DNA of 64,000 nucleotides from contig OU612067.1 of NCBI GenBank assembly GCA_914767715.1, forward strand, positions 9,174,001-9,238,000, given 5' to 3'. Each line of letters opens with the position of its first letter. The stretch's first letter is position 1. Source of the DNA: Membranipora membranacea. Its lineage: Eukaryota > Bryozoa > Gymnolaemata > Cheilostomatida > Membraniporidae. Below are positions 4,672 through 44,789 of this stretch, in pieces. Below the pieces are notes generated by a model. It made no database searches. It was given only the letters and a program-made list of their open reading frames with translations, and was not told the DNA's origin. The translations under genes were made by a program, and so were the position numbers.

Positions 4672-5099
4672 AGAACAAGATCATGGAGTCATCCCGTATC
4701 AACAGAACAATATAGTCTCTGCAATGCTTGATCGGACAAAATGGTATTGGCTAAATTTACTATTATGCTTGATCTGGCACATCATCACCAGATGTAGAGT
4801 ATCGCCACGTGATCACGAGGGAATGCTATTAACTAATGATGCACAGCCGTTTTTTTTGTAAACAAATTATTTTTTCTCATGTCAATTATTGCTACACAAT
4901 CAAATGGCTGCACTTTTACAAATTGCTTTATACTTTTATTTGCGCAATGCGTGAAATAGACTTCAGGTATAAAGAACAAATTTCATTCATGGCAATAAAG
5001 TTTTGGCGAAAAAAAGGACGCCGACGGGTTGGTGAATGCGGATTTACCCCAGCTGTGACCGTTTGAATTTTGGGTGATGGTTAGTCACACGCTCCAAGA
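4672..5099. other. Spacer between gene copy and DIRS-like remains
   Basis: AT-rich sequence after the PAN-like stop codon. I see no coding exon with splice support. Part of it is duplicated in A' (near 23.4-23.6 and 24.03-24.32 kb). Confidence 0.4.
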
Positions 5100-6430: not shown

Positions 6431-7744
6431 TATAAATCAGCTTTATTCCATCTTATTACAAATGTATATCTGCGCTTCTGTCAAATAAACAGGGAAAGCA
6501 GTAATATGCGTACAATACAGTTGTTACCCGGACCAAATTTTATACAATAGGGAGTTCAAATCTGTAGTTGTGTTTTCTTGTAACTGGGAAAATTGAAAAG
6601 ACCGAGTCTGTGCATGAAATCCTATGCTTAGCTTTTCAATCGCATGTAATGAATGCAATCAGATTTCCAAAGCATACACGCACTTAAAAACAATTTGTAA
6701 AATTACTATCCACATTGCTATGATGGTTTCGTAGTGAGGACATCACAAGCTCACTCCTCTGTTTTTATAAAGATGCCAGCGATTCTGACCTTTCACCTTC
6801 ATCCTCATATCAGTTCACTGTTGGAGTGCCTTGCACAATAATTCAGATTTTAAAGTCGATTGTTGAGGCTTGATTAAAATCATGTTACCAGGAAAGGACC
6901 CAATATTTTATGGTCATATGCACTTTACCTGGAATCTGTACTGATCGAAATAACCGGGATTATTCAAATCACCGGCTGTCAAAGTCTAAAACAATATACT
7001 AACATATGGAGTACAATTCAAAAACTTGACAAGTAAAAATTAAGATTTTCCCAGTACACAAAAGCATCCTGTAATTGTGTCTCTCAACACATCTCAACAC
7101 TTAATGCAGTTAGCAAATTTTTTGGATCTGGGGTCCAATGCTATCAGCAATCAACCGGACTCAAAAACATTTATCTGGTTTTTCAGCCTTTGGACTGGTT
7201 TTGTGATGATGACCCATCTTGGCAAAGCAAATATATACGTCCGCATGAAAAACTTAAGCTAAACGCCACAGTTTGCATCAACGGCGAAAATTGTTCACTA
7301 TAGCTGCTATTTGTGCCCAGAATTAGTTAGTCTCAAACTTCATTCCATGCAAAAATTTATTTCATGTACGATTGTTTCTTAATGATGTACTCCTGCAAGG
7401 AATACAAACATCTTGCAATAAGCATATAATTCCACTTATGGGAGCTGGCCAATAACGATAAAATTTTCCTACAGAAGCCCTTTTAAATATACATGGTTAG
7501 TGGCGATTGCATGGTACAAAACCATTTGTGTAGGACATGGAAAACTTTTGCACCATTTTTGCACATGGCAAGCTAAAGTACGTGGCAAGCTATTGTACCT
7601 AGCAAGCTTTCAAACACCATCAATTTTTTCATGTTTTAAAGTATGGCTCAACACTTTATCAGGATAGATGGGAGACATACACAATGAAGCCAATACCAGT
7701 TACATAGGAATAAATCAAGAATTTATGAGCATTCCCCCAGATAT

Positions 7745-8545
7745 TTTTGTAACCAGCGGAAAAAAAGGGAAACAGTGCCATTCCATAGTTCATTTGGTAA
7801 CGAGCAAACCTGTAGGGCTCTGCGAGCTATAACACTAGATTTGTTTGTGAAGGGAATACACAGCACTTATTCTACAGAGATCTTTGCGCCCGCTTCGTAG
7901 CTTTCATGAGTTGTTTTGTTAAGCTTAGGTAATTCTACCTTTGAACCGAAAGCCTTCCAACTCAATTTATTTTAGTGTTTAGCAAGCTATACAGGCCTCA
8001 CTTAACAGTTTAGCTACAAAAATCCAAATTCACCGTCGGTCAATGACTACAACAATTGGACAAAGCTTCCAAATGATTTAAACTTTGTTGGGAAGATCAC
8101 CTAAACGGTGAAACTTGAGCACTCTGCATGCTATAACGCTATGTTCGCTTGTAAAGAGAATAAAATTGCTTATGCTATCGTGGATTTATGTGCTGGCCCC
8201 TAGATATTTTGTAACCAGCGGAAAAAAAGGGGGAATAGTGCCATTCCATAATTCATTTGGTCTGCATGCTATCACACTAGGTTTGCTTATACCGAGAATA
8301 AAAAGTACTTATGCTACAGAGATCTTTGAGCCAACTTCATAGCTTCCATGAGTTGCTCAACAAGCTTTGGTAGTTCTATACCTTTAAACCGAAGGCCTTT
8401 CAACTCAATTTAGCCAACTATACAGGTCTTGCTTAAAAGCTAAGCTACAACCATCCAAGTTCATAGCAGGCCAATGTATGCAACAAATGGACAAAGCTTT
8501 CAAATGATCTAAACTTTGTTGGGAGGATCACTTAAACATGGCTGT
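7745..8545. repeat. Two-unit tandem repeat of about 0.45 kb
   Basis: The unit starts near AACCAGCGGAAAAAAAGGG at about 7,752 and again at about 8,213. Both units share blocks down to CAAATGATNTAAACTTTGTTGG at about 8,068 and 8,497. The mirrored arrangement is present in A' at about 19,775-20,575, so it predates the inverted duplication. Confidence 0.75.
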
Positions 8546-9564
8546 AAAAGTACAGTATATACATGATATATAACTTAGCTTTGTGGTGTTCCTTTGCAAG
8601 TGTTCTTATCTCGCCTCAATCGTCTGTTTGCGGCCTTGTTGCAGCCCCAATTTCCTAGCATATCATATCATACAATTATCATAGCATCTATCACCATATA
8701 CCAGTGCCGTCAAACTCTTGTGTCATCCTGGTTGAATCACACCAAGTCACCGGCTAGTCAATCGCGCTGAAATAAAAACTGGAAAGCAGCAGCATAGCAT
8801 CCAATTTTGGTGATGTCAATAAATTGGAAAAGCTTGAGAAACCGATTATCAGTGCCTGTAACAGATATGGGCATGTAAAACTTTATTTTAACGGAATTGC
8901 GAACCAAACTGGAACAAAAACAAAGGGAGAGGAACCAAAGCACTTTATTTTTGAAGGAAAAACCGAGTTTCTATAAAAATCTCTTGTACTGACTTCTGGA
9001 AAAAAATGTTGTTATCATAATGATGACCGCAGGGGTATTTTTTTTGCCCAGGCATACCGCATATCGTCATGCTTTGTGGAATTAAAAAGCTGGTATCCAC
9101 ACCAATACAGATCACCAAACCACTAACAAAGATAGCATTCCGCTATACCAAATTGCGGCAACTAATTTCAAAGTCCTCACCAATTTTGCTGCTGATAAAA
9201 AAACCCACATTGCAGATCCCCAGTCCATGTGTCCATGGTTGGCCTTCATGTATTAAAAGTGTTGGTCTCCACGCTTTTTAGTCAGGAGGTGGAAGCACCT
9301 ATTAGTTTTGGTCACGGTCAAACAGCTGGAGGAGAGTTACAAAGCTTAGATATGGGTTAGAATGCGTTTGCAGATCCTTATATTATTTTGATAGTCATGT
9401 GCGGTTAACATTTGCTGTTAGTGTGTCAGTCCTCTCCCTTATTAAACTTTTGAGCTGATTAATTCAGATAAAGGATTTGAGGGACACAGAACCCAGTCAT
9501 ATGCATGTACAAAGCAAGCTATTGGAACAGTCTTATTGGTAATGTTTACTTACACTTGCCATGT

Positions 9565-9785
9565 TGTCTCGAGAGTACAGTGCTACCTTGTCTGAGGCAA
9601 AGAAAGGAAAGGAAAGCTAATGACCTTTGCCCAACATTAAATATCCTGATGTTCAGCCAATCAGAATTCAGAGTTGCTTCAACAACCAAGCTGTGAGGAA
9701 AGCCTCATTAACCATGAGAAGCCAACTCATAAATACACAAACAATTTTAATCTAAAAAATCCATTTCTTACAAAATGGTAATTTT
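9565..9785 (-). repeat. Interspersed repeat of about 205 bp, copy 1
   Basis: The reverse complement matches 18,535-18,745 (its A' partner) and also 23,660-23,872, where an extra copy sits inside a local duplication. Shared landmarks are GAAAATTACCATTTTGTAAG at one end and GTAGCACTGTACTC at the other. The extra copy shows the segment is, or was, mobile or prone to duplication. It has no coding frame worth naming. Confidence 0.65.
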
Positions 9786-9997
9786 CCGCATTGTCAAAAG
9801 TTAACCATTCAGCTTCAAGCCATGTGATGAATTTTTGGGCCTGTCCTGCCGTCTGCTTTTCATTGGACAAGTAAATATTTTTCAATACATAAAAAAATTA
9901 CTCAGTTAAAATAAGTGGATTTGTATGTCATGACAATGCCATCTATATTTCCGCACTGTCATAATGTTGGAAAGGTGTATTTAAAACCTGACAATAT

Positions 9998-10000
9998 GAG
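9998..10000. other. A/B junction (3-bp filler)
   Basis: Homology to A' stops after GACAATAT at 9,997. Homology to B' starts at ATGGGA, 10,001. Only GAG lies between. Beyond their ends, A' continues as CACTAAG and B' is preceded by AATTAA (in B direction), so the blocks share no microhomology here. Confidence 0.8.
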
Positions 10001-10802
10001 ATGGGATAACTCATACCTATAATTTCTACTTTCCCCTTATGATATAAAACGTTATGGTAGAAAGTTTAACCATTCTCCCTTGTTGAACATAAATGAAATT
10101 ATTACAAACAGATGGACATGAATACCTTCTGAGAGCTCTCAAATTGATTATTGTGTTTAAGTTTAATCGATGGAAACAACAACCTGTGTTACTTGGCAAT
10201 ATTGTGTGCCATGAGAATATTTTGTCTTATCTGACCTATGAACAGTACAGGGGGAGGGGGAGGTCGCCCATCCACTAAGTATCTGTGTCTGTTGCGATAA
10301 AGTCTCTGTAGAACCCCCAACTGCTTTCTAGTCCTCTTGATGACAGGAACATTGGACCGCTCGATGATCAATTGCTATTGACACAAAATATCATATTCTT
10401 CCCCGCTAAGTGTTTCGATGTTTCAACTTACAAATGCTCTGTGACCAATTATATCGATATTTTTGTTTAGTAGGTGGTCCAGAATCTCACTGAGCCATCT
10501 TGCACACATTTATGTCTTCGCAAATCCCTTATAGTAGTCAGTCAAACCAAGTCTCTAACTCCTATATCAAACATTCAAGGTTACTTTAAATGACATATTG
10601 TATATAGCATAGAATTTAATGCATAACCATATTGCCCTCACTAGCACTAATTTTACTTGCTAGATAATAAAGAGCCGCCAGCTAACAACCAATAAACAAA
10701 TGCATCATGGTGTTTTGGGATCAAACCAGTATTGAAGATAGGGTTTTAGCAGGGTTACCTGTGATATGTAAGGACAGATTAGTTAAGGCTCGCAGTAATA
10801 CT

Positions 10803-11033
10803 TCACAACTGCATAGAACTTGAATCAGTGATAAATAAAATTTGAGTATTTAGGCCCACATAGAAAATCGTGAGATACCATAGAAGGCTCATATTGCTGC
10901 AGTTGAGAAACAGAACAACCAGCATAAAAATGATTGTTGAAGATTGTAAGAAATTTTCAAGCTGTTGATAGCGGGGATCAAATTTTGACTGTAATGGTTC
11001 CAGGCTTCTCATAGGCAGGTGTTGTACACACAC
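10803..11033 (-). CDS. Hypothetical 76-residue ORF conserved in B and B'
   Basis: An ORF beginning MCVQHLPMRSLEPL with one hydrophobic stretch (FMLVVLFLNC). It stays open in B' (48,966-49,196) with about three residue changes. I see no splice support and no recognisable family. In a pair of recently duplicated blocks an open frame of this length can persist by chance, so this is only a candidate. Confidence 0.2.
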   Translation of the reverse strand: MCVQHLPMRSLEPLQSKFDPRYQQLENFLQSSTIIFMLVVLFLNCSNMSLLWYLTIFYVGLNTQILFITDSSSMQL

Positions 11034-11419
11034 ATATATATATCTATATACATGTGATTTAGGCGGTGGCTAGCCATCATGTTAGATTTATTTATCACTA
11101 TGGATAATGAGTAGGCTATGGCTACAGCAGATCTTCCCAGATCTTTCCTTTTTATTCATTGTCCCCTCCCCATAGACCACTGAATAAGTAGTAGGCAGCC
11201 CACTGTATGTTTAGGTAGAATGGATGGATATTGTTTCACTAGCTGGCTAGATAGACGGATAATGGTCTTTGGGTACCCAGGCATAGTTGAGTTACAAATA
11301 ATATCAATTGATTCAATTACTTTACTGAACAAGCAAAGTACAATATCTCAAAAAAATCATCTGCTGGTTGCTTTGCCTGCCTTGACAAGCTTGTTGGAGG
11401 GTTTCCCCCCTCCTATCAG

Positions 11420-11640
11420 CAATGCCTGTCAAATCATAATCACCAATTTGCATCAAATGAGAAGACAATTTTTATTGAGTTGCGACATTTGCGACGTTAG
11501 TGGGTTCGAGCTATTGCGACGTTTTAAAAATTGCGACGTTTGTGGGTTTGCGACGTTATAAAAACCCTTCGTTGCGACGTTTTTGGGATTGCGACGTTAG
11601 TGGAACGCTAGATTGCGACGTTTTGACGTCTTTGGGTTCA
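11420..11640. repeat. GCGACGTT-rich repeat, 7 motif copies
   Basis: Seven GCGACGTT motifs at irregular 15-40 bp spacing in otherwise AT-rich DNA, preceded by a unique-looking leader around AAATCATAATCACCA. A second copy lies at 51,325-51,543. The B' partner (about 48,500-48,620) has lost about 100 bp and keeps two motifs, consistent with recombination between motif copies. Confidence 0.8.
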
Positions 11641-11785
11641 ACAGGGTGCATAAATCATTATTAGTATTTGCTAGTAACAAGCAAGACCACTGTACTCATA
11701 TGACCATATGTACTCAGGGAGAAGAGCTTGATAATGTATAGGTTCATGACTGACTTTCATTGTTTTGTCTCGTTGAATCATACAG

Positions 11786-11806
11786 CCCCCCCCCCCCCCC
11801 CCCCCC
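11786..11806. repeat. Poly-C tract, 21 C
   Basis: 21 C here against 12 G at the B' partner (about 48,351-48,362): a length-variable homopolymer. Confidence 0.9.
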
Positions 11807-11989
11807 AATGTGAACTTCATAAAAGCTTGTGTATAAAATTGTCCTGCCTGTAAGAGTATATAGTATGACATTTATTGCCGATTCTTCTGCCAGGCATGTA
11901 ATTATTGGCGGGTGAAAAGTTCCCATCTCAATCAGTCTGATATTCCATATTTTTTGTCATGGAAACAAGTTCATCTTGACACTCCGTGA

Positions 11990-14857
11990 GTTCTGTTAAC
12001 ATATTCATTATGTTGTTCTATGTTGTTGAAAGCCTTTACTTTTTGATGCTAAATAATGAAAACAGTAATTTTTTTTTCATTTATTACATTGTAGAGGATT
12101 CGAGTTTTTTACGTGTCCATCATGGGGAGGGTTTAGTAACAGTCCCGCAACAAATCTCATGTGTCAAGATAAGAGACACTCTACGGGATTCTGAGCTTGA
12201 AGTTTATCTCAAACTTGTGTGCTGTCAGCACAGATATAAGATAAATAAGATAAATATTTTATTTTGGTAATTTTGTCAAAGACAAATTACAACGTACGGT
12301 GGAAACAAGGCTCTGTCATATGATAAGTAAGGGAAACAAACCAGAAACTGCAACTTTAAGTTACCGCAAATACCACATGACCAGCTAGAAATAAAACGTT
12401 TGGAAAAGACGGAATCGACTCTTTAATATTTTAGAATTAATAGTTGTTATTTGAAGACTGAGATGATTATAGGAAACTGGAAATTCCAGTGTCCTTGAAT
12501 AGAGAAAAACCAATCACAATAATGCTAATTGGCGGTGAAATCGTAAAACAGAGATGACTAATGTTCTAACATTAGATAGAAGCATGATGGCTCAGATACC
12601 AGCAGGTATCAGTACCAGTATGTATAATCCAAAATAGAATCAAGCTAAACGAAACCTAGCGGAAGAATTGATAAGATCTAATAGTAACGTAGCCAGCAAA
12701 GAAACGAAAAAAAAAGATATTCACAGGCTACAAGAAGCAACACCTTAGAACATTCTAGACCACATGCCGCCACCTATATCAAAGGCAAGGACTCTCCACT
12801 CGCACGCACATACACGCAGGCAATCACGCTCTCTTCAACAATTTGATTTTGTATGCAAATTCTTGAATCCTATGAATAACACACTTATTTCTAACAAGGT
12901 TACTAATAAACATTATACCTTGATCATCATCATCATTATCATCATTATTCAATACCGAGAGAAGACTACCTGGAGCAAAGGATTTTGGTAAATACTATTA
13001 AATAATTATTATCCATTTGATTTACTTTAAAAACCATTTTCGATATTTTGATGATCACTTATTTTATCAAAACTTTGAGAAAACAAAATAAAAGCACATA
13101 TTTAACCAGTGTCCCACCATTCATGAAAATTTCCAAATTCTTTTTCAAATCTTTACAAGCAAAGGTATTCAAAACTGCCCTTCCATACGTGAATAAGAAT
13201 CTGACTTTCTTACCAGAAGCACTGATACATGATGTTCAGCATGCCCATGAGATAAATAGCTCTACACTACACGATTTCTGCTAGAATATCACTTAACTTG
13301 TGAAATGTCTTCATGACAACAGAATCATTTGTAAGCATGGTCCTTTCTACACATTGTGTTACGACAGAATTAATGCAAATTCTTGTATCAGTTTACCAAT
13401 GCATTAGTTTGATGGTTTTGTTGGTTGCAATACAATGTTCTCTTGGTCATGTTTGCAAACAAAATAACAGTGTAATAGTATAAAGTATGATATGAAATTA
13501 AATTACTAAAACAATGAAATGTAAAATTTTTGTAAGCCTATCGTATTTGAAAGATTATGTAAGTTCATCATTTGGTGTTGTCTTCTTAACATCAAGGAGA
13601 ACTCAACTCCGATACAAATTATAATATGGCAAATATTGTTAATGGATGGGGATGATTCACAGTATTACCATATCTTATATCAAAATATGTTATAGTGTTT
13701 AGAAAGATTTGTCATTTTTCATTGTTTAGAAAGATTTGTCATTTTTCCCCATACACCTTATTATAGTTTGATAAAGTTTTCTGACAAAACTGTTAAGTAT
13801 GAACATAGTATGGATACTACGTCAACGTGATTTTTAACTTGTTTTCATTGAAAGCTGAAATATTATGAGTTTTAAACAAGTAATGGTGCCGAGAATATTT
13901 CTCTTTCTTTCTCTGTGGTCTTTTGGTGTCCAATTAAATAACATGCTGCTTCACGCAAGGGTCATGACCTTGAATAGTAATTTTGGTAACAACTATTTAT
14001 TAGTTTTTCTGTCCTGATCGCAGCACCTCATGCATTTGTCTGTGAGAATTTGGTTTCAATATAATATATTGCTCAAAATGCTCAAAATACATGATATTAC
14101 TTTGAGCATATGTTACTTTATAAGGTGGGAATATTCCATTTGAACAGTATGAATTGACACCGAGGAAATAACCTGCCGACCAATTATACACTGTACAGAG
14201 ACACAGCTTATTTATGCGATTATTACTAACACAAACTATTGACATTTGATTCAAATGCACATACTATAAATTGAAATACCACCTTAGATCTTATCTTATA
14301 CTATAAATACACCAACATATTTTATTTGAATGATCAGCTTCGTTTCTAGACTATCCTGAAATGTAGACGGTATCATAACGCTGTTCACTTCCACTTTTCA
14401 TTCATATGATGCAGAATATTTGGTAAATTTGTTATCTTAAGTGTCACACAATTTGTTATCAGAAGTGTATCACCCTGAGTTTCTTCATATGAGCATACAT
14501 ATTTTAAGGCCAGGGTACCCCCTCCACTAATAAACACACTCAACCGATAACAATAATTGGATTGATATGATTGGCGAATGAAACAGAAGCAGAGCCAATA
14601 GAATACAGAATGGGTCACATGATCTGATCCGGCAAACTGACGTGATAGCCTGATAACATACTAAGCTACGGTGAGAAAGGGGGCGGTCCAACTCTGCACT
14701 CACTTTTTTGTTAAAAACGGCAGAGTAATTGAAATGGTTGGGCTAAGAAGGATCTAGACTGATTCAAAGATTACTCTTTGCAGACAGGTGTGATACTGTG
14801 GTGTGACTCAGTATTTCTCTCCAAGTTTCGAGTTACATTACTCATACAGTCCTCAAT
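11990..14857. other. Upstream part of block B without a supported gene
   Basis: Contains an ATC-rich microsatellite at about 12,920-12,950, two tandem copies of a segment with AGAAAGATTTGTCATTTTTC near 13,700-13,748, and scattered short ORFs. An ORF at 11,986-12,270 has an AG acceptor before GAGGATTCGAG, but its B' copy is cut by an early stop, so I do not call it. Confidence 0.4.
13048..13284 (+). CDS. Hypothetical 78-residue ORF conserved in B and B'
   Basis: Begins MMITYFIKTLRKQNK and ends SSTLHDFC. The B' partner (46,736-46,972, minus) is open over the same length with about five residue changes. No domain, signal peptide or splice signals are recognised. It could be an exon of a larger gene or a chance frame. 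Confidence 0.25.
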   Translation: MMITYFIKTLRKQNKSTYLTSVPPFMKISKFFFKSLQAKVFKTALPYVNKNLTFLPEALIHDVQHAHEINSSTLHDFC

Positions 14858-15580
14858 ATGGCAGCTAATAATACAGGCAGACTTCAACAAACAACACAAC
14901 AAGTCTCAACAGCAGATATTTCAAGCCTTATTGTTCAACAGAGATTTAGAAAAGTAGAAGAAACTCATACCTCTAAAGGCTGTTGCTATCTTCGAAATGG
15001 GAGGTAAGTTATTTCTTAGTAGATGTTTGATGAAATAAATAAAGCTCTATTTTCATTCCGATGTTGGCATGGTGAGACAAGAGTAGATATTGACTATTTA
15101 AAGAACCTCAAGCTCAATCAACCTCTGAAGTTATATCTGATAGGTATGAAATTGTCTCAGAAAATCCACCTACGATCACAAAATATGACTTCAGTGACCT
15201 GCGAAATTTGGAAAAACTGTAACACGATACACAGTAGCTAGCCCACCAAGGCCATCAGAGCCTCAACAGTTGGCAGAGGTGAAATCTTATACCATAAAGA
15301 TTACTTGACCTCTGCCAATTTTTTTAATCCACGTTGAACTACATAAATGACATATATTAGAGTTGAGGCTTGATTTTCCAAGATGATTTTTATTTATTTT
15401 TTGTTTTCCAGCTTTTTAGTGCGTCGATGTTTGTGTAAAAGATTCCTGAATGGAGCTCAAGAGCAGCATAAGAGCCTCGATTGTCATTACATACAGATGA
15501 CAGATATAAATTCCAACTTTGTCTATCTGATGCTAGAATGCAAGTGTAATACACCAACAAAGGACCTGGTAAAAAAATAG
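14858..15580 (+). CDS. CHY/CxC family gene, copy 1 in block B (104 residues, two exons)
   Basis: Exon 1 is 14,858-15,003 (48 codons plus two bases, then GTAAGT). Exon 2 is 15,412-15,580 (TTTTCCAG acceptor, stop TAG). The join makes NGSFLVRRCLCKRF. The product carries RKVEETHTSKGCCYLRNG in exon 1, and C-L-C, EQHKSLDCHYIQ and ECKC in exon 2. Relatives on the minus strand of B' have the same intron phase and nearly the same exon 1 length, which supports the model. No signal peptide is visible, so an upstream exon or a cytosolic location are both possible. The function is unknown. The Cys/His pattern could be disulfide-bonded or metal-binding. Between this copy and its B' partner every codon difference changes the residue. 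A possible alternative last exon at 15,144-15,222 is listed separately. Confidence 0.65.
15144..15222 (+). CDS. Possible alternative terminal exon of CHY family gene 1
   Basis: Acceptor CTGATAG then G-TAT-GAA. It is in phase with exon 1 (AG+G gives R) and would append YEIVSENPPTITKYDFSD and a few more residues before TAA at 15,220-15,222. The B' frame runs four codons further. Five of the eight B/B' differences in the whole intron fall inside this 79-bp piece, and all five change residues in this frame (and also in the frame that ends at 15,241). That suggests it is translated, but the acceptor is weak. Confidence 0.3.
15257..15373. repeat. Nested hairpin in intron of CHY family gene 1
   Basis: Inner stem: TTGGCAGAGGT at 15,270-15,280 pairs with ACCTCTGCCAA at 15,308-15,318, with further AATCTT/AAGATT pairing around a short loop. 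Outer stem: AGCCTCAAC at 15,259-15,267 pairs with GTTGAGGCT at 15,362-15,370. It is preserved in B' with one loop-region change. The size is compatible with a small MITE or a miRNA-like precursor; neither is proven. Confidence 0.6.
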
Positions 15581-16508
15581 ATATTGTATTTTCTGTTCAA
15601 TTTCATTCAAAAAGACAATCTGTCAGAATTTGATTTAAGAATCAATTTGTCATAGTTTTCTAATGATAAAATAAACTATATCTCCACTATATCAAAAACC
15701 AAAGTACTCCTGTGCTACTGTGATGCTCCACTTATAACATAGTAGTCATTTCTTTGTTGGCTTCACTCAGTTCCTAGCTTACTGCTTTATGACATGAGAA
15801 TTAATAAAGACGATAACATAAATGAAAAACGAATAAAATAGTTCTCGATAGAATTCATGAATAACTTTGTGTGCTGTCTGCTTGTCTGCAGCTGGGTTGT
15901 TGATGATTATCTGAAATCATTTACATACTTTCTGCAAATCACTGAATGATCTTTGCCTCATGTCTCAACAATAATTGATTAAATCTTTCAGAGTTACGTA
16001 TCCATTGATGTTGGTAGCACAACTCCCATTTATCATGCTCATTTATAATTATTGCTATAAGTAATGCTGGAAAAATCAGAATGAAAAATCAGGAGCTAAT
16101 TTTAATTTTTTATTTCTCTTTCAATGTCTGTAACAGTTGAGCTATGAAAAAGGCTAAAGGCTATCCTCCAAAATAATTTGGTTTGATCACGATCAAACAT
16201 TTAAAGCCAAGTTTGGATATTCTAATCATGATGATATCAGACACAGATTTGAGTCCAACCTATATGTACTGTTTTCCAATCTTTGACTTTGATAAATATC
16301 GCTCTGCATAATTGAAGCCAATTCCAAAAACTACCAGTTATCTTAATCATGACAGACTCGAGAGTGTCACTTTATTATCATTTATCAGTGTTTGTTCTTT
16401 GCCCTGCCACAAGGACAAAGGGTCGGGGAAGTCCCCTCATTCAGTCGAGGTTATATGGTATGGTATGACATTGACATGCTATGGTGCAATAACAATCACA
16501 TGATCACA
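15581..16508. other. 3' part of block B: remnant of CHY gene 3 end, then non-coding
   Basis: At about 15,713-15,742 the bases encode CYCDAPLIT followed by TAG. These are exactly the last codons of CHY family gene 3 in B' (33,638-33,664). The rest of that gene is absent from B. Downstream sequence to 16,508 has no supported gene. Confidence 0.6.
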
Positions 16509-18322
16509 CTCTACGCGGAAGCTATCATGCGACCCAAACTTACGTCAAACCTTATAGCTTGCACTGATAAAGAGAAATAATTTTATTAGGTCGGTGTCCA
16601 GTTCCCCCCTCCTTCCTTCTGTTATACATATAAGTGCCAATAGGTGGCTTTTAACTGTTAGTCATTTTTGGGCTGAAGTTCTGACAGCAAAATCTGTTGG
16701 ATTAACAAACGCTGCAATGGCTTATAATGATTCTTAATGAGTTTTTGGGCTTATTCTGAAAAACCTTTTAAACAAATGATATTTATGGCAATTAAAGTAT
16801 ATATATAGCTCATTGACTTGATAGGTGTAATACTCTGCTGATATGCCTCAGTTTTTTTCCTGCTAGCTTCATGAGCTAGATATATGGTTGACATCAAGAC
16901 CCAAATCAAGATTTTTATTTTGATCTGTATAAATCATGTTACCAAAACCATATAACATGAAAATACCCGGAGTTGTTTTTGTTCCCCTTCCAAGTTTCAT
17001 GATGACAATCAATTCTATTAAATGATTTGTAGTGGTCTTCAGAGAGTTTGTGAATGTGGCAGTTTCATAACAAATAGTGTTGAGCCACATACAGACATAA
17101 GATGCCGTTATGTGAAGATCATCGATACCCGCTATAAGTTTCATGCTAGAGCAGCTAGAGTTTTTTCTCAAACTCGTTTGCTGCTGTAATGCAGAATTAA
17201 TTATATAGAAATATATTATTCTTCACTGGAGCAGCCATGATAATGATGATATTTTTTCATAATTCTAGTAATATAATGATAACCCAAGTTCGTTCCTTTT
17301 CATTATTGGGCTCTTTCAGCCCAATCATTATTGATGTATATAAGTTCAGTTATTTCTTATAACTACAAATGAAACTCGCTGATTTTGCTGCAGGCGTAAT
17401 AAGAGTTGTAAACATACATCTTTGGAATTCCCCTAAGACTTTCAAAGTCAAATTTTCTAACTAGTTAACAAGCGCATATTTTAATTTATTTATCTCAAGT
17501 TTGACAGAGGATGGCAGCTCTCTCATTTGTCAAAACCTAACATGGACCAACTCATTGAAATAACTAAGGCTACGAACTCCTCAACATATCAAATAGAAGA
17601 TGAGTACGCCCGTGTTATCAGATAGCCAGAATCAATAGTGTCAGTTGTGTTATCAGATGTCATCCGATGATTTTGAGATTTTAAACCAGTTCTGTTTTTG
17701 GTTAACTCTGTTCGGTGTGCTTCTGTTTTTTTACCTTGAACACAATAGCGGTCAAATGATAAACTCTGCTGTAAGCACTAACTGACATAAACCTGATAGC
17801 ATGCAAAACTATATATACTTGCTCTATGATATGGCTGGCTTCATGTACATGCTAAATTCTCTGATGGCCTGTTTATCTGGTATGATAATGGCAATTCAGA
17901 AAGTTCTAGAGCTTAATAATTGTAGGTAGGGCATTTTGCTGAATGTGAGTTAAGAGTTTGGTTTTACCAAAATGGAGATGGCTTGATGCTAGCAAACACT
18001 AAATTTCAGCTTGTCTGGATTGTAATCTATATATAATGTTGTTGTTAAATAGCTAGATTTAAAATTTAAAAAATTGGTGTACTTTACTCCTCTAGGCCAG
18101 TCGACAATATTTGATCATAGTCCTGGAACGCTTTGCTGAGAATTAATCTCATCATTATATTCAACGAGAAGTATGGGGAGCCATTTCCTAGACTTAATTG
18201 CAGTGAAGGTAAAGCCTTTTGAAGGTACAGACATTATTGGGTCAAGTCTATCAACACAAGCATGCTAGCCTGTAGTTTGTACTTGTAACAAGAAATTTTT
18301 GCATTGAATCTTCTGCTTAGTG
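16509..18322. other. Region X between block B and inverted A'
   Basis: About 1.8 kb of single-copy AT-rich DNA. A 100-residue minus-strand ORF (16,869-17,171) has no splice support, no recognised domain and no second copy to compare. I see no gene that I can defend. Confidence 0.5.
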
Positions 18323-21300
18323 ATATTGTCAGGTTTTAAATACACCTTTCCAACATTATGACAGTGCGGAAATATAGATGGCATTGTCATGACATACAAA
18401 TCCACTTATTTAAACTGAATAATTTTTTTATGTATTGAAAAATATTTACTTGTCCAATGAAAAGCAGACGGCAGGACAGGCCCAAAAATTCATCACATGG
18501 CTTGAAGCTGAATAGTTAACTTTTGACAATGCGGAAAATTACCATTTTGTAAGAAATGGATTTTTTAGATTTAAATTGTTTGTGTATTTATGAGTTGGCT
18601 TCTCATGGTTAATGAGGCTTTCCTCACAGCTTGGTTGTTGAAGCAACTCTGAATTCTGATTGGCTGAACATCAGGATATTTAATGTTGGGCAAAGGTCAT
18701 TAGCTTTCCTTTCCTTTCTTTGCCTCAGACAAGGTAGCACTGTACTCTCGAGACAACATGGCAAGTGTAAGTAAACATTACCAATAAGACTGTGCCAATA
18801 GCTTGCTTTGTACATGCATATGACTGGGTTCTGTGACCCTCAAATCCTTTATCTGAATTAATCAGCTCAAAAGTTAAATAAGGGAGAAGACTGACACACT
18901 AACAGCAAATGTTAACCGCACATGACCATCAAAATAATATAAGGATCTGATAACGCATTCTAACCCATATCTAAGCTTTGTGACTCTCCTCCAGCTGTTT
19001 GACCGTGACTAATAGGTGCTTCCACCTCCTTATTAAAAAGCGTGGAGACCAACACTTTTAATACATGAAGACCAACCATGGACACATGGACTGGGGATCT
19101 GCAATGTGGGTTTTTTTATTAGCAGCAAAATTGGTGAGGACTTTGAAATTAGTTGCCGCAATTTGGTAGAGCGGAATGCTATCTTTGTTAGTGGTTTGGT
19201 GATCTGTATTGGTGTGGATACCAGCTTTTTAATTCCACAAAGCATGACGATATGCGGTATGCCTGGACAAAAAAAATACCCCTGCGGTCATCATTATGAT
19301 AACAACATTTTTTTCCAGAAGTCAGTACAAGAGATTTTTATAGAAACTCGGTTTTTCCTTCAAAAATAAAGTGCTTTGGTTCCTCTCCCTTTGTTTTTGT
19401 TCCAGTTTGGTTCGCAATTCCGTTAAAATAAAGTTTTACATGCCCATATCTGTTACAGGCACTGATAATCGGTTTCTCAAGGTTTTCCAATTTATTGACA
19501 TCACCAAAATTGGATGCTATGCTGCTGCTTTCCAGTTTTTATTTCAGCGCGATTGACTGCCCGGTGACTTGGTGTGATTCAACCAGGATGACACAAGAGT
19601 TTGACGGCACTGGTATATGGTGATAGATGCTATGATAATTGTATGATATGATATGTTTGGTAATTGGGGCTGCAAACAAGGCCGCAAACAGACGATTGAG
19701 GCGAGATAAGAACATTTGCAAAGGAACACCACAAAGCTAAGTTATATATCATGTACTGTACTTTTACAGCCATGTTTAAGTGATCCTCCCAACAAAGTTT
19801 AGATCATTTGAAAGCTTTGTCCATTTGTTGCATACATTGGCCTGCTATGAACTTGGATGGTTGTAGCTTAGCTTTTAAGCAAGACCTGTATAGCTGGCTA
19901 AATTGAGTTGAAAGGCTTTCGGTTTAAAGGTTTGAAACTACCTAAGCTTGTTGAACAACTCATGAAAGCTATGAAGTTGGCTCAAAGACCTCTGTAGCAT
20001 AAGTACTTTTTATTCTCGGTATAAGCAAACCTAGTGTGATAGCATGCAGACCAAATGAATTATGGAATGGCACTATTCCCCCTTTTTTTCCGCTGGTTAC
20101 AAAATATCTAGGGGCCAGCACATAAATCCACGATAGCATAAGCATAAGTGCTGTTTATTCTCTTTACAAGCGAACATAGCGTTATAGCATGCAGAGTGCT
20201 AAAGTTTCACCGTTTAGGTGATCTTCCCAACAAAGTTTAAATCATTTGGAAGCTTTGTCCAATTGTTGTAGTCATTGACCGACGGTGAATTTGGATTTTT
20301 GTAGCTAAACTGTTAAGTGAGGCCTGTATAGCTTGCTAAACACTAAAATAAATTGAGTTGGAAGGCTTTCGGTTCAAAGGTAGAATTACCTAAGCTTAAC
20401 AAAACAACTCATGAAAGCTACGAAGCAGGCGCAAAGATCTCTGTAGAATAAGTGCTGTGTATTCCCTTCACAAACAAATCTAGTGTTATAGCTCGCAGAG
20501 CCCTACAGGTTTGCTCGTTACCAAATGAACTATGGAATGGCACTGTTTCCCTTTTTTTCCGCTGGTTACAAAAATATCTGGGGGAATGCTCATAAATTCT
20601 TGATTTATTCCTATGTAACTGGTATTGGCTTCATTGTGTATGTCTCCCATCTATCCTGATAAAGTGTTGAGCCATACTTTAAAACATGAAAAAATTGATG
20701 GTGTTTGAAAGCTTGCTAGGTACAATAGCTTGCCACGTACTTTAGCTTGCCATGTGCAAAAATGGTGCAAAAGTTTTCCATGTCCTACACAAATGGTTTT
20801 GTACCATGCAATCGCCACTAACCATGTATATTTAAAAGGGCTTCTGTAGGAAAATTGTATCGTTATTGGCCAGCTCACATAAGTGGAATTATATGCTTAT
20901 TGCAAGATGTTTGTATTCCTTGCAGGAGTACATCATTAAGAAACAATCGTACATGAAATAAATTTTTGCATGGAATGAAGTTTGAGACTAACTAATTCTG
21001 GGCACAAATGGCAGCTATAGTGAACAATTTTCGCCGTTGATGCAAACTGTGGCGTTTAGCTTAAGTTTTTCATGCGGACGTATATATTTGCTTTGCCAAG
21101 ATGGGTCATCACCACAAAACCAGTCCAAAGGCTGAAAAACCAGATAAATGTTTTTGAGTCCGGTTGATTGCTGATAGCATTGGACCCCAGATCCAAAAAT
21201 TTTGCTAACTGCATTAAGTGTTGAGATGTATTGAAAGACACAATTACAGGATGCTTTTGTGTACTGGGAAAATCTTAATTTTTACCTGTCAAGTTTTTGA

Positions 21301-21870
21301 ATTGTACTCCATATGTTAGTATATTGTTTTAGACTTTGACAGCCGGTGATTTGAATAATCCCGGTTTTTTGGATCAGTACAGATTCCAAGTAAAGTGCAT
21401 ATGAGCATAAAATACTGAGTCCTTTCCTGGTAACATGATTTTAATCAAGCCTCAACAATCGACTTTAAAATCTGAATTATTGTGCAAGGCACTCCAACAG
21501 TGAACTGATATGAGGATGAAGGTGAAATGTCAGAATCGCTGGTATCTTTATAAAAACAGAGGAGTGAGCTTGTGATGTCCTCACTACAAAACCATCATAG
21601 CAATGTGGATAGTAATTTTACAAATTGTTTTTAAGTGCGTGTATGCTTTTGAAATCTGATTGCATTCATTACATGCGATTGAAAAGCTAGACATAGGATT
21701 TCATGCACAGACTTAGTCTTTTCAATTTTCCCAGTTACAAGGGAACATAACTACAGATTTGAACTCCCTATTGTTTGAAATTTGGTCCGGGTAACAACTG
21801 TATTGTACACATATTACTGCCTTCCCTGTTTATTTGACAGAAGCGCAGATATACATTTGTAATAAGATGG
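18323..21870. other. Non-coding part of A'
   Basis: Mirror image of 6,431-9,997. It has the 205-bp interspersed repeat at 18,535-18,745, the two-unit tandem repeat at about 19,775-20,575, and no supported coding exon. Confidence 0.5.
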
Positions 21871-21871
21871 A

Positions 21872-23460
21872 ATGAAGCTGATTTGTAATTTCATTCCACT
21901 GATGGAAACAGAATCCTCTGGATCGATTGGCTATGGAGCCATACTGGGGCCTGAATGGTTTGATGGTACTTGGAATGACGCCTGGTGGACCTCTCAGAAC
22001 ATAGTGCTATTGGAGCCGTACCCTATCTTCGCGGCCCTACACATCTGGAGACACCAGATAAGTGATAGTTGCTTACTTATAAAAACTGACAATATGGCTT
22101 TAGTGTCCATTCTGACTAAGTTCTACTCGCTCTACTCCCGTTGATAAACCAACTCTTAAAACTGTGCATTTCAATCCTCATGACTCACAATATCGCAGTC
22201 AGGATGGAATACATCCGTAGTGAGGATAACATTATCCCAGATAGACTCTCACGTGGGCAGGACTGCTCAGTTTGGCTTAACACCAACAGACGCCGCTACT
22301 TGCCAGCCACTATATGTCAAAAGCATATCAAAGGAGAGTTGATTAGGTATTTCCCCGAATCATGGTTGAAAAGAATTATTTTTTGTTGGTGTATTAACCA
22401 AGTCAAAAATATGATACGTACCTGGTTTTTTGCAGAAATTCGAGCCCTAGAACAGGATGCTGACTGTATGATTATGGCTTCCATTAGTGACAGCACTAGA
22501 CGAGCCCGCAACAGAGTCATGGGCAGACACAATTCCAAGATAAGTTTAGTTCTCACACTATCAAACTATTTGTAATACAACAGAGAAACTCTGGCCTGGG
22601 AGATAAGGCCCTAAGATCTAGCCTCCTCGCCATTCGGTTTTATTGCAAAGCAAACGATTTGGCTTTAAACTTTGACTTACCGAGGCTACAATTTATACTT
22701 CGAGGAGTATCTAATACCCAGATCCCTAGGACCAGGCCAAACATGGCTTTCTGTCTGTCTCTTTTGACAAAAATTTGTAACAGCGCTCGTAATCTACTGC
22801 ATGGGCAGATTTCAACCGCTGTCTGTACACTGTTTACCCTAAGTTTTTTGGACTTCTGAGACCTAGTGAGGCATGCCATGCGCCTTCGTCACCTTCCCAT
22901 CAGTTAAGCAGAAAAAATATAGCTATATATTCAAAATTTTTGATCATACATTTTAAATCTTTTAAACTTTCCTGGATCGGTGAAAGTCTACGCCTTCAAT
23001 GAAAAGGCCAACTGCCCCGTTCGAAATTTGAAGAGTTACCTTAAAAAACATGCATTGAATTCAGAGGACCAGTTATTTGATTTGTCTGCCTCCACCTTTG
23101 CAAATTATCTATGTCGGTGCCTTTTGCATTGTGGAGCCACTGAGCATTTTACGCCCCATGGCTTTCGATGTGGCGGTGCTAGTTTCTATTCCTCGATTGG
23201 CATGGCTGATGCAACCCTTTGTGCCAAAGGAGGCTGGAAATCAACTGCTTTTTACATTATGTGAAGCCAAATGTAAACTAATACAGTTATTGGGGAAAAT
23301 CAACAGCAATTTCTTGTATTTGCAAAACAATAAACAGCCTTAAGATTTTATGGCGAAATTTTTCCCCTTTATCTGCCCCTTGTATCACGGATTTAGACCG
23401 ACCATCCTCACGATCTGGAGATTTCTGTTCGCGTTTGGAGAGTAATCTTGGAGCGTGTGA
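21872..23460 (+). pseudogene. DIRS-like retroelement remnant, longer copy
   Basis: An RNase H-like segment (21,872-22,144, GYGAILGPEWFDGTW and KTDNMALVS) stops at TGA. The RNase H tail (EDNIIPDRLSRGQ) continues in the next frame. A tyrosine recombinase follows with AFCLSLLTKIC, an LRPSE box (arginine), HGFRCGG (the H-x-x-R box) and GGWKSTAF. Frames change at least three times, and I see no clear catalytic tyrosine after the last box. No reverse transcriptase is found upstream. The domain order identifies DIRS-type ancestry. The element is dead. Confidence 0.75.
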
Positions 23461-24320
23461 CTAACCATCACCCAAAATTCAAACGGTCACAGCTGGGGTG
23501 AGTCGGCATTCACCAACCCGTCGGCGTCCTATTCTTCGCCAAAACTTTTATTGCCATGAATGAAATTTGTCTATTTAACGCATTGTGTAAATAAAAGTAT
23601 AAAAAGCAATTTGTAAAAATGCAGCCATTTGATTGTGTAGCAATAATTGACATGAGAGAAAATTACCATTTTGTAAGAAATGGATTTTTTAGAGTAAAAT
23701 TGTATTTATGAGTTGGCTTCTCACGGTTAATGAGGCTTTCCTCACAGCTTGGTTGTTGAAGCAACTCTGAATTCTGATTGGCTGAACATCAGGATATTTA
23801 ATGTTAGGCAAAGGTCATTAGCTTTCCTTTCCTTTCTTTGCCTCAGAAAAGGTAGCACTGTACTCCCGAGATTTTGAAACCCTCCATCCCCCCCCCCTTC
23901 GATCACCTTGTATTTGTTACTCACATGATGTTCTTTCTAGTTGTAGAACGTGTGAGAAGAGTGCCACAGGATTACCTGCTACAGTAGATCACTCAATTTT
24001 TTGATTTAGAGACCAACTCTTACACAGATTTAGACCGATCATCCTCACAATCTGGAGATTTCTGTTTGCGTTTGGAGAGTAATCTTGGAGCGTGTGACTA
24101 ACCATCACCCAAATTTCAAATGGTCACAGCTGGGGTGAATCGGCATTCACCAACCCGTCGGCGTCCTATTCTTCGCCAAAACTTTTATTGCCATGAATGA
24201 AATTTGTTCTTTATACCTGAAGTCTATTTCACGCATTGCGTAAATAAAAGTATAAAGCAATTTGTAAAAGTGCAGCCATTTGATTGTGTAGCAATAATTG
24301 GCATGAGAAAAAATAATTTG
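23390..24320. repeat. Local duplication in A' with inserted repeat
   Basis: Two copies of a segment containing CTTGGAGCGTGTGACTAACC and CCAACCCGTCGGCG lie at about 23,390-23,660 and 24,030-24,320. Between them sits an extra copy of the 205-bp interspersed repeat (23,660-23,872) and about 150 bp of other sequence. Block A has the segment once, so the rearrangement is specific to A'. Confidence 0.8.
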
Positions 24321-24510
24321 TTTACAAAAGAACGGCTGTGCATCATTAGTTAATAGCATTCCCTCGTGATCACGTGGCGATACTCTACATCTGGTGATGA
24401 TGTGCCAGATCAAGCATAATAGTAAATTTAGCCAATACCATTTTGTCCGATCAAGCATTGCAGAGACTATATTGTTCTGTTGATACGGGATGACTCCATG
24501 ATCTTGTTCT

Positions 24511-33637: not shown

Positions 33638-35765
33638 CTATGTTATAAGTGGAGCATCACAGTAACACTCTAGTTTGAGGAAAACTCTGACTGGTGTGCT
33701 GTATCGAGTGTCCTGTATCTGAATATAATGGCATTTGATGTTTCTGTGTTGCTCAACCATCTCAGTAATAAAGCTTCCACATTTGCAAATTCGAACCAGT
33801 CCCCTAAAATTAAAAAAATTGAATATCTCATTAACTCAAATGTCTGCAAGTATTAAAAACAATGTAGCAGGATTTTACGCTGGGCATGCGGAAATAATTT
33901 TTTTATTCCACCACTATAGACAAAAAGAGCATTAAAGGGCAACCAAGGTTTCGCAGCAATGCATTAATGGGTGGCAAATAATGTGCTGGGCAGCATCAGC
34001 TTTGTGCATTATGCGATGCAAAACTCAAAGTAGTTGCTGACTCTAAGATGGGTAACACTTCAGTTTGGGGGAGGTTCCAAGACTTTGCTGTAATAATTAT
34101 AGAGCACAGGCTAAATAATAACAGGAACAGAAACTGCTATGTGGTATTCTCTTTTAGCTGAGTTTGAGTACCTGATGGAAGAAACGTTTCACAAGAATTC
34201 TGGCTGAATAATCATCCGAATTATACTTTGTCTTTTTCCCCATGCAGAAGGTGCAATCTGCTATTAATCAATGGCCATCAATGAGAAGTTGTTTGAAACC
34301 TTGGTTGCCCTTTAAAAATAGTGGCATCAACTACAAAGATTTTAGTGAAATGCTTTATCTGCTGTGATTCTTTGGAGCATAATTAAACATGAGTAATGAA
34401 GGGAGCTGCTCTGTGAACTCAGCTCAAGCTTGCACATCATGATACTGAACCATGAAATAGTGATGTATCATATTTAATTCAGGCATACACGCATGGTCCC
34501 ATTGTCAGCCTAATAAGTAATCTGACGACATTTTGGCAAGTTTTGATGTCAGAAATTCTTTGTCTTGTTTTTTTCTTCAGAAAATGTGGAATTTTACAAA
34601 TACTTTAGCATTTGAGAAAGTATGGGTGGATAATGGGACCAATCTGATACTCAGTTAAGTTGAGAAAGATCCATGGTTATTGCCAAAATCATGATACTGA
34701 ATGATAAATAACATGAAAGGCACACAAATTTAGACTTGTTGAAGGATCATTAAGAGGCAAATGAAAATGTTCACCCATAAAAATTCATTTTTGTGCTATA
34801 TACCACTATTTTTCTTTAAATTATTCTTTTGTCTGTTGAGTGATTTTATATTGATTTATCATATTTAATTCAAGCCGAGACACAGTACAGTACAGTACCT
34901 AACTGTTTCATAGCCATATGACCCACTGGCACTGGCTGAATGTGTACTATTTATCTCAAAGACTATTAATAGCGACGAAGGGCTCTTTTATCATGATGTT
35001 ATGTTTGATATGATTTTAAAAAATGACAAAGACAGGGCACCTCATGTATAAGATAAAATATAATAGTGTAATATTCTTACACTGAAAAACTCATATGACT
35101 TCTGGGTAAAAATTATGTAAAGTGTTAGCAGATGTACCCCCTGCTCATCTATGAGTCGTTTATGCCTAGTGCTGTTCTATCTACTGTAGCGAAGCGAACT
35201 GTAAAGGTAATGAGTTAAGTTATCTACTATTGCACAATGTCTGCTGACAATGTGGATAAAATCAGTAGTAAAAAGTATTTGAAAGTGGTAGCTTATTGGG
35301 ATGGTACAGCACTAGGTATAAATGCCTGATTGATGGACAGAAGGGAAATTTTAAAAACTATACATAATTATTCTTTCCCTTGCTCTAGTATCTCAGAAGA
35401 CTTTAATAGTGATCTCATCTGAGGTACAAATCATCTCATGGTTACACACTTATATAAATTGTGCTCCGTAGAAACCTGCATAAGATCTCATTTTCTATTA
35501 TACAGCTTAGACTCATCAGCGCAAGACCTGTTTGGTCTGCTCAACTGCTGGATCAATAGTGACCTACTAGAGCAAGTATCTAGGGGGTTTTATTGCAGGA
35601 TCAGACAATTTTAAAAACTTACAATATACCATTTGGATGATAATGGCAGTCTACATTCAAATGCGGTCCTTCTACTTTTCTAGAAGTCTCCCTAGCAAGC
35701 TGATGTTTGTCTGCTACTGAAACATGCTGTACCGTCTTTTTCGTTCTAACTGGGTCAAGATCCAT
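33638..35765 (-). CDS. CHY/CxC family gene 3 (102 residues, two exons)
   Basis: Exon 1 is 35,765-35,623, ending TATATT before GTAAGT. Exon 2 is 33,803-33,638, after a TTTTAG acceptor and ending TAG. The splice is phase 2, as in the other members. Exon 1 gives MDLDPVRTKK through SRKVEGPHLNVDCHYHPNGI. Exon 2 gives GLVRICKCGSF, VEQHRNIKCHYIQIQDT and VFLKLECYCDAPLIT. The two halves each carry H-x4-C-H-Y followed by C-x-C, so the protein looks like an internal duplication. The frame is open upstream to 35,834, but alignment with gene 1 favours the ATG at 35,765. No signal peptide or transmembrane segment is seen. The family is not recognised. The last nine codons plus stop also exist in block B at about 15,713-15,742. 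Confidence 0.65.
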
Positions 35766-39149: not shown

Positions 39150-40622
39150 CTAAGTGAGCTTCGCATCACAGAGGCACACTAGTTTGAGGAAAACTCTATC
39201 ACTGCATCGAGTGTCAACTATCTGGACATAATGACAGTTGTATCTTAGATGTTTTTCTTCACCATAACTGTAGCGTCCACACGAGCAATCTCTCACCAGC
39301 AAACTACAATGGTATATGATGAAATACTCTGATCAAATGAATATAAGATCAATGTGCTATTGTACACGCTTGTATATACTTTATATATATATATATACAA
39401 GAAATTTAAACAATCAGCATACTCCTGTACAAAATCATTTCAATTTTTTGCTAGAGAAAGAGAATTTATTTTTAAACATAATCATCAGTTAAATTTCTCA
39501 GTTGATTTCTTTTCCAGTAACATAATGTATGAATTCTTATTTTCTCATGTCCAATAAACACGTGGCTCTAGAAAAGAGCTGGCTCAAGTGGATGCTAGTT
39601 AATTCACTTTCACAGCCTCAATTAGACGCATATAATTTAGTGTACCAATTTAGTTTAGTTAAGATTCGATATTACCATGTGATAACAAAAATGGATCACG
39701 CGTTGCTCTGTTTAAAAATCGTAATACAAATTTTTCAACTTGCATAATAATGTTGTAAACATGTGACATAAAAATTAAAGAAGCTGCAACGTCTCTTCCT
39801 CAGTGCGACATTGCTTTGGTCTTTTTGCCAGTGCGGCCTAATGGGTAATCTTTTGTGGCCTAATTGTGGCCTTATGCCTAAAAAGTTGTAACACATCGGT
39901 TTTAGTTTCGTTATGTGGAGAACCAAGATAGTAGCCATTCTGTGTTATGCATGTAGCAAAGCTTCCCAGCCACTCTACACAAAATCAACATAGGCCTAAC
40001 TGTGGTACTGGTGCCAACGACTTTCTCAAGTTATTTTTTTTTTCGAAATAGCACAGAACAGTGACCATAGTATGTTAAAATTACAAAGTTTTCTAACAAA
40101 ATAGTAATTAATACTTTTTGCAAAAACGTCAATTTGGACGAAAGGCAGATTTGTATCAAAAAGTCTCTTTGTTACAAGAGCTCTTGCAACATACTACAGT
40201 CTTTACACAAATCGGTTTTATTATTCACACAATATAGGGAGTTCCAAAATTGTCACTCCAGTTCCACCTTTATCCCTGAAGGATATGTTGCGGCCTTATG
40301 AGTTGAGCCTGCATAAAATGTGGCCTTTTTCAAAAAAAGGTTGCCCACTTATGGTCTAAAGTATCTGGAAAAGCTTTGGATATATGCTTAAGACTCGTGC
40401 CTCCTGAATGGCACAGTACACTTCCAGAAGCATTTGTATTATCACAGTATCAGCTGAAGAGCTCATGGTAACTTACCCATTACTTTGTCTCTGATAATGA
40501 CAAGCAGTAGACTTATGCGGGCCTTCCACTTTTCTTGATATTTCTGAGACTTGTTCTGGTGTATCTGGATTCTGAACACGTTGCCCAGTTTTAACACACC
40601 TGCCCCTATTCAAACAAGACAT
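39150..40622 (-). CDS. CHY/CxC family gene 2 (99 residues, two exons)
   Basis: Exon 1 is 40,622-40,477 (146 bases, the same length as gene 1) with donor GTAAGT. Exon 2 is 39,303-39,150 with acceptor CATTGTAG and stop TAG. Phase 2 again. Exon 1 begins MSCLNRGRCVKTGQRVQ and contains SRKVEGPHKSTACHYQRQSN. Exon 2 contains LLVRDCSCGRYSYGE, LRYNCHYVQIVDTRC and VFLKLVCLCDAKLT. The residues shared with genes 1 and 3 are mainly the Cys, His-Tyr, VR and VF/LKL positions, while the intervening residues differ widely. The intron (39,304-40,476) contains no other exon I can see. Function unknown. The gene lies between gene 3 and a non-LTR remnant, all in the 10.27-kb segment missing from B. Confidence 0.65.
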
Positions 40623-44072: not shown

Positions 44073-44789
44073 TTATACCAGGTCCTTTGCTGGTATATTA
44101 CACTTGCATTCTAGCACCAGATAGACAATCTTGGAATGTATATCTGTCATCTGTATGTAATGACAACCGAGGCTCTTATGCTGCTCTTGAGCTCCATTCA
44201 GGAATCCTCCACACAAACATTGACGCACTAAAAAGCTGGAAAACAAAAAATAAATAAAAATCATCTTGGAAAATCAAGCCTCAACTCTAATATATGTCAT
44301 TTATGTAGTTCAACGTGGATTAAAAAAATTGGCAGAGGTCAAGTAATCTTCATGGTATAAGATTTCACCTCTGCCAACTGTTGAGGCTCTGATGGCCTTG
44401 GTGGGCTAGCTACTGTGTATCGTGTAACAGTTTATCCAATTTTCGCGGGTCACTGAAGTCATATTTTTTGATCGTAGGTGGATTTTCTGAGACAATTTCA
44501 TACCTATCAGATATAACTTCAGAGGTTGATTGAGTTTGAGGTTCTTTAAATAGTCAATATCTACTCTTGTCTCACCATGCCAACATCTGAATGAAAATAG
44601 AGCTTTATTTATTTCATCAAACATCTACTAAGAAATAACTTACCTCCCATTTCGAAGATAGCAACAGCCTTGAGAGATATGACGTTGTTCTACTTTTCTA
44701 AATATCTGTTGAACAATAAGTCTTGAAATATCTGCTGTTGAGACTTGTTGTGTTGATAGTTGAGGTCTGCCATAATTATTATGTGCCAT
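44073..44789 (-). CDS. CHY/CxC family gene 1, B' copy (102 residues, two exons)
   Basis: Exon 1 is 44,789-44,644 (146 bases). Exon 2 is 44,235-44,073, ending TAA two codons earlier than its B partner. The product has STQQVSTADISRLIVQQIF and QGCCYLRNG in exon 1, then SFLVRQCLCGGFLNGAQEQH, GCHYIQMTDI and VLECKCNIPAKDLV. Against the B copy, 11 of 48 exon 1 codons and 10 of 53 exon 2 codons differ, plus the stop shift. I counted no synonymous difference. The 408-bp intron differs at eight bases. All Cys and the HY pairs are unchanged, so the framework is kept while surface residues vary. Confidence 0.7.

Follow-up and report, generated by a model that had tools for sequence, protein, structure and literature searches.

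Variable genes in marine animals include Alr of Hydractinia and 185/333 of sea urchins. Botryllus fester has likewise been described as a variable marine-animal gene under selection, and in this it resembles the pair of genes reported here. A similar picture is given for SSP-1 and SSP-2, which are treated in a paper together with venom phospholipase A2 genes (PMC1783844). As in the present case, these are arrayed paralogs, with a KA/KS of 1.739 and low intron divergence (KN 0.0649). The inversion of a segment is also discussed there, which is comparable to the inverted arrangement found here.

The candidate locus lies on chromosome 3 of the bryozoan Membranipora membranacea, at about 9.19-9.22 Mb. 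It was studied within a window of 64,000 nucleotides, the whole stretch of DNA analysed, whose first letter is position 1. Two copies of a small gene, B and B', are found in this window in inverted orientation. Since their duplication, substitutions that change amino acids have built up at several times the rate of neighbouring non-coding change, while the Cys/His framework of the protein stayed intact. The features of the locus are listed in Table 1.

Table 1. Position and strand of gene B, its inverted copy, their relatives and associated features in the window.
Feature	Position	Strand	Remarks
Duplicated block B	9987..15709	+	Inverted copy B' in pieces within 50011-43938
Possible older exon-2 relic	12133..12222	+	Weak, E about 0.5-1.6
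Gene B exon 1	14858..15003	+	Starts with ATG, ends in phase 2 before GTAAGT; base alignment and splice models
Gene B intron	15004..15411	+	GT...AG, 408 bp; 8 differences from B'
Gene B exon 2	15412..15580	+	Second half of repeat 1, repeat 2, TAG stop
AATAAA, possible polyadenylation signal of B	15670..15675	+	Retained in B'; putative function
Remnant of a C copy directly behind B	15712..16509	+	98.2% identical to 33668-32873
E, broken exon-2-like copy with reading frame shifts	17022..17205	+	Local translated search
Paralog C exon 2	33638..33803	-	Local translated search, splice model
Paralog C exon 1	35623..35765	-	Local translated search, splice model
Paralog D exon 2	39150..39303	-	Local translated search, splice model
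Paralog D exon 1	40477..40622	-	Local translated search, splice model
Gene B' exon 2	44073..44235	-	Stop at codon 103
Gene B' exon 1	44644..44789	-	Alignment to B

Divergence between B and B'

The two copies were aligned base by base and then codon by codon, and the counts given in an earlier note on this DNA were all recovered. Exon 1 differs at 15 bases in 11 codons. Exon 2 differs at 12 bases, with 11 of them in 10 shared codons and one further difference creating the stop of B', which comes two codons earlier than that of B. This leaves 26 differing sites in 102 shared codons, with 21 codons altered. None of these 21 changes is synonymous by direct codon comparison, exactly as the note had it. 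The intron count also stands (8 of 408 bases, all substitutions). As for the control proposed there, the open stretch at 3258-3442, present in both arms of a large inverted repeat, is indeed identical to 25920-25736 over 185/185 bases. The name “PAN-like”, under which this neighbour had been introduced, finds no Pfam match and was dropped.

The wording “intron conserved” did not hold up. Its 8/408 differences compare with 151/5505 elsewhere in the block's non-coding sequence (2.0% versus 2.7%, P=0.43), and the intron is therefore neutral-like, not unusually conserved. With the intron changing at a neutral-like rate, it is the exons that are the fast part. An imperfect hairpin is also found within the intron of B (15265-15323), with 19-nt arms that are 84% complementary and one difference from B' in this region.

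The coding sequence offers 69.3 silent and 236.7 replacement sites. A pathway count (NG86) assigns 25.25 replacement and 0.75 silent changes, the latter owing to a single codon in which all three bases differ, and yields a dN of 0.115 and a dS of 0.011 (replacement versus silent sites, Fisher P=0.013). Under random mutation the expected silent share is 19-29%, according to the transition rate assumed, and the probability of 0 silent in 26 is 1.6e-4 to 3.8e-3. When changes were simulated from the substitution spectrum seen in non-coding DNA of the block, the absence of silent change among 26 changes had a probability of 0.0029 starting from B and 0.0020 starting from B'. These values become 0.0083 and 0.0071 when the 21 changed codons are taken as one event each. 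With zero silent changes, the two-sided 95% lower bound of dN/dS is 1.9 for 26 events and 1.5 for 21 events.

Replacement sites were also compared with non-coding DNA of the same block (26/237 versus 159/5913), giving odds of 4.5 (P=7e-9). The result is close to this (odds 4.2, P=3e-8; non-coding 147/5117) when 15712-16509 is left out because it is the 3' flank of a copy of paralog C and not partner DNA of B'. Against the intron alone the difference is again clear (dN 0.115 versus 0.020, P=3e-6). Silent sites by themselves, with 0 of about 69 changed, are indistinguishable from the neutral rate (P about 0.15). As the pair was originally picked because it looked odd, P values near 0.002-0.013 need some discount, while those of 7e-9 and 3e-8 need none. 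The excess of replacement change over silent as well as non-coding change supports the diversifying selection that had been proposed for this pair.

In terms of their nature, radical substitutions make up 16 of the 21 replacements, and a change of charge is involved in 10. The replacements are evenly spread along the protein, with 7 in residues 1-30, 7 in residues 31-60 and 7 in residues 61-102.

A passive gathering of replacement changes in one or both copies, as would happen in dying genes, has some appeal in a family with broken copies (E and g3, the latter described below) and with B' two codons short. Relaxed constraint predicts a dN/dS of 1, however, and not above it. It agrees poorly with the probability of 0.002-0.008 for finding no silent change and with a divergence of replacement sites 4.5-fold over non-coding DNA. 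Both reading frames are open and the most conserved positions are kept, including the conserved Cys and His of both repeats. Where at least 75% of nine other members agree, 0/14 positions have changed compared with 21/88 elsewhere (P=0.03). Without the start Met this becomes 0/13 against 21/88 (P=0.04), which argues that the protein is not simply decaying; under three other definitions of “conserved” the sparing is not significant (P 0.66, 0.41, 0.15). We regard decay as very improbable, and diversifying selection is favoured over it.

A second recent pair of the family, g2 and g3 on chromosome 5, was taken as an independent test. It has 11 replacement and 2 silent differences, and the excess of replacement over silent change is not confirmed in it (P=1.0 by sites). 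Its replacement sites are more divergent than its own intron, which has 0/257 differences (P=0.0009), and g3 is frameshifted. The evidence for selection rests on one pair, B/B'. The g2/g3 intron (contig 5, 24812635-24812891 versus 24860323-24860579) shows no difference in its 257 bases, against about 3% divergence in the remainder of the duplicate (P=0.0006), possibly through gene conversion or constraint.

This identity is one of the observations that would suit a patchwork origin of the B/B' pattern, in which diverged donors overwrote the exons, or homogenisation affected the intron and flanks, leaving exons and intron with different ages. Divergence is uneven along the block, and multi-base changes are clustered in the exons, where 6 adjacencies occur among 27 differences, against 13 among 159 in the non-coding DNA. 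Given this commoner adjacency, some exon changes may be single multi-base events. A patchwork, however, calls for two tracts bounded by both splice sites, and conversion does not itself remove silent changes. At 17 of the 21 changed positions neither B nor B' matches C or D, and no donor is seen in these paralogs. Nor is the intron rate below that of the other non-coding DNA of the block, as given above. Gene conversion is thus an unlikely source of the pattern, if less so than decay, and selection after duplication is still the preferred reading.

Family members and the predicted protein

The exons of B appear to be those of a real gene, because the diverged paralogs C and D share the two-exon, phase-2 structure and a predicted protein of Bugula neritina has the same layout. 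Exon 1 of B (146 nt) encodes an N-terminal tail and the first half of repeat 1. In a DNA search of the whole genome (339,339,785 bases in 18 contigs), B and B' were the only matches listed, where match counts are to be read as at least the number given.

Searches with B, C and a member from contig 11 revealed more clusters, at 24.81-24.88 Mb of C5 and at 5.50-5.53 Mb of C11; contigs C3, C5 and C11 are chromosomes 3, 5 and 11. The C5 cluster includes g1 and g2, with two open exons each, the frameshifted g3, and g4, for which exon 2 only was seen. On C11 a stretch of about 27 kb contains 11 matches to the last exon. Some are weak (E 0.01-0.03), and four were spliced into models. The contig-11 query recovers C, B and B' at E values of 0.001, 0.007 and 0.17, which ties the groups together. 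Further weak places were found on C1, at C5:25.94 Mb and at C11:14.45 Mb. The family totals about 20 loci on three chromosomes, with 18 not seen to be broken. Judged from these sequences, the family exists and its clusters contain broken copies, a pattern of birth and death.

A profile built from four members found one protein, EB796_001959 of Bugula neritina (P0001), at E=2e-7. This protein of 107 aa is a clear homolog, with a similar length, the KVEGPH...C-x-Y segment and two Cys/His repeats. It differs in a longer linker in repeat 1 and in a C-x3-C in place of C-x-C at the end of that repeat. Compared with paralog C it has 35% identity over 67% of its own length.

The profile of 11 members, which includes the Bugula protein, found it again together with four metagenome proteins (P0002-P0005, E 0.01 to 1.5). 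P0002-P0004 have an exon 1 very like that of Bugula, followed by an apparent intron read-through, while P0005 is less alike; all four probably derive from Bugula. Pairwise, P0002-P0004 show 6, 7 and 9 differences in the 46 residues of exon 1 and 2, 4 and 3 in the 27 of the apparent read-through, numbers compatible with little constraint on exon 1.

As for known families, B alone had no match in Pfam, PDB or a search of 5.8 billion proteins. The 11 members fit no family in Pfam, NCBIfam or PDB, with 0 matches in the last. Two candidates, each hit by 1/11 members, were taken as chance: D8C_UMOD of Pfam (E 0.077; 13.6 bits, with the cut-off at 27) and a fimbrial chaperone of NCBIfam (E 0.011). 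A likeness to the C-terminal region of IL-17 is conceivable. No description of this bryozoan family was found in the portions of the literature searched, and it appears so far to be undescribed and restricted to bryozoans.

Family proteins have about 100 aa and contain two repeats of the form H-x4-C-x-[YFW]...C-x-C. The alignment of 11 members comprises B, B', C, D, the Bugula protein, two proteins from C5 and four from C11. In the numbering of C, the residues H35, C40, R52, C54, C56, E65, C72, C94 and C96 are invariant in 11/11 rows, and Y42, H67 and D79 are present in 10/11, with g2 departing at H67 and D79. M1 is also found in all rows and was counted as no evidence, because the starts of the ten spliced models were chosen, not observed. 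Repeat 1 follows H-x4-C-x-[YF]...R-x-C-x-C, where the closing C-x-C is present in 10/11 and is C-x3-C in Bugula. Repeat 2 follows E-x-H-x4-C-x-[YW]...C-x-C across the alignment. Each repeat therefore has one His and three Cys conserved or nearly so.

The first intron is in phase 2 and falls inside repeat 1, after the C-x-Y strand, in all ten spliced models (B, B', C, D, g1, g2 and the four of contig 11), each being the only GT-AG model found that gives its protein. Contig-11 genes have a second phase-2 intron. Pieces of exon 1 were placed by the aligner onto repeat 2, which supports an internal duplication.

AlphaFold models were obtained with low confidence for the Bugula protein (mean pLDDT 44.3), where paired strands are seen in both repeats, and for exon 2 of B (mean pLDDT 59.1), where they are seen in repeat 2. 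The paired strands fall where the repeats should form hairpins.

No hydrophobic N-terminus or signal peptide is visible in 11/11 members as modelled with hand-chosen starts, and no membrane span is seen in them. Using simple hydropathy and these starts, the highest 12-residue value in the first 36 residues is at most 1.11 in 11/11. An AG stands just before the ATG of B and of B', and an upstream leader exon is possible. The absence of a signal peptide weighs, although not decisively, against the secreted ones among the putative functions that had been suggested (immune, venom, gamete). Without a hydrophobic N-terminus, the protein as modelled would be cytosolic or nuclear. Conserved Cys and His in such a location suggest metal binding rather than disulfides.

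Genomic setting of the duplicates

Block B is enclosed by a large inverted repeat and occupies its 8-kb spacer; the arms of about 14 kb extend from about -3742 to 9997 and from 18323 to 32864, with pieces 92-98% identical (in-window parts 1-9997 and 18323-29177). Paralogs C and D and LINE-like reverse-transcriptase frames are found between B' and the second arm. These LINE-type frames, labelled by eye, are at 41157-42720 (-), between D and B'. Just upstream of B' there is a tandem duplicate of 375 bp (44911-45284 and 45294-45668, 97.3% identical).

A mistaken assembly of haplotypes was also considered, and we hold it unlikely. B and B' are inverted on one scaffold and their order differs relative to arms A and A'; the resulting order, A-B-A'-B', departs from a simple mirror image and would not simply arise from a folded-back haplotype. 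Furthermore, the genome paper reports that haplotypic duplications were purged (PMC10290214).

Traces of earlier duplications are found around B. The remnant directly behind it consists of the last ~30 bases of C exon 2 and the C 3' flank, which suggests that a second copy of C once stood there. For the broken copy E, no exon 1 was found by local translated search of the window. The putative exon-2 relic of Table 1 has its counterpart in the B' block at 48026-47937, where it carries a stop.

Both arms contain tyrosine-recombinase-like pieces, at 5100-6452 (-) and 21866-23343 (+), with RNase-H-like and recombinase-like frames, and these pieces resemble a DIRS-like element. A Pfam match to Phage_integrase has E 0.026, below the cut-off. 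Lastly, an exon of an SLC12 cation-chloride cotransporter is found at 58940-59422 (-) (Pfam PF03522, E 1e-21).

Proposed function and comparison with known systems

Taken together, we favour, with a probability of roughly 0.6, a family so far restricted to bryozoans, probably metal-binding and intracellular, that evolves by birth and death and in which diversifying selection acts on B/B'. Our confidence is moderate for the family and for the selection, and low for the function. B and B' are recent inverted duplicates of a small two-exon gene that belongs to a multigene family. Each repeat may form a beta-hairpin stabilised by a metal ion, with zinc the most likely one, and the leaderless protein could serve as an intracellular scaffold, with an exposed surface to which a changing partner binds. 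Duplication and replacement change would then track this partner. A component of a pathogen or of a selfish element is the candidate, and a gamete or colony-recognition partner is less likely.

In favour of the latter option, reproductive and recognition proteins often evolve like this, and bryozoans live as colonies. Sperm-egg interaction, or the fusion and rejection of colonies, would drive the diversification of an extracellular or membrane-delivered product. The lack of a signal peptide or membrane span in 11/11 modelled members, whose starts were hand-chosen, argues against such a product, and we consider this reading rather improbable, though less so than gene conversion.

For the intracellular family preferred here, a more specific and tentative version is an arms race inside bryozoan cells, in which clustered, leaderless double-hairpin zinc proteins would diversify by duplication, inversion and replacement-only substitution. 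If true, it would offer a route into the innate immunity or genome defence of a phylum for which little has been described.

Exons that diverge by replacement only, on either side of a neutral intron, bear a clean mark of diversifying selection. In this case the mark leads to a family that no curated profile covers, in a phylum that has received little study. Should population data confirm it, the locus would be a concrete candidate for conflict or recognition in bryozoans, and its short protein would lend itself to expression and testing.

The products of Botryllus fester, Hydractinia Alr and sea urchin 185/333 are secreted or membrane proteins built from other domains. The SSPs are proteins of snake serum (PMC1783844), and nothing in this analysis connects them with the bryozoan family, itself without a visible signal peptide. 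Under the arms-race reading, the diversification of the family would be likened to that of vertebrate restriction factors.
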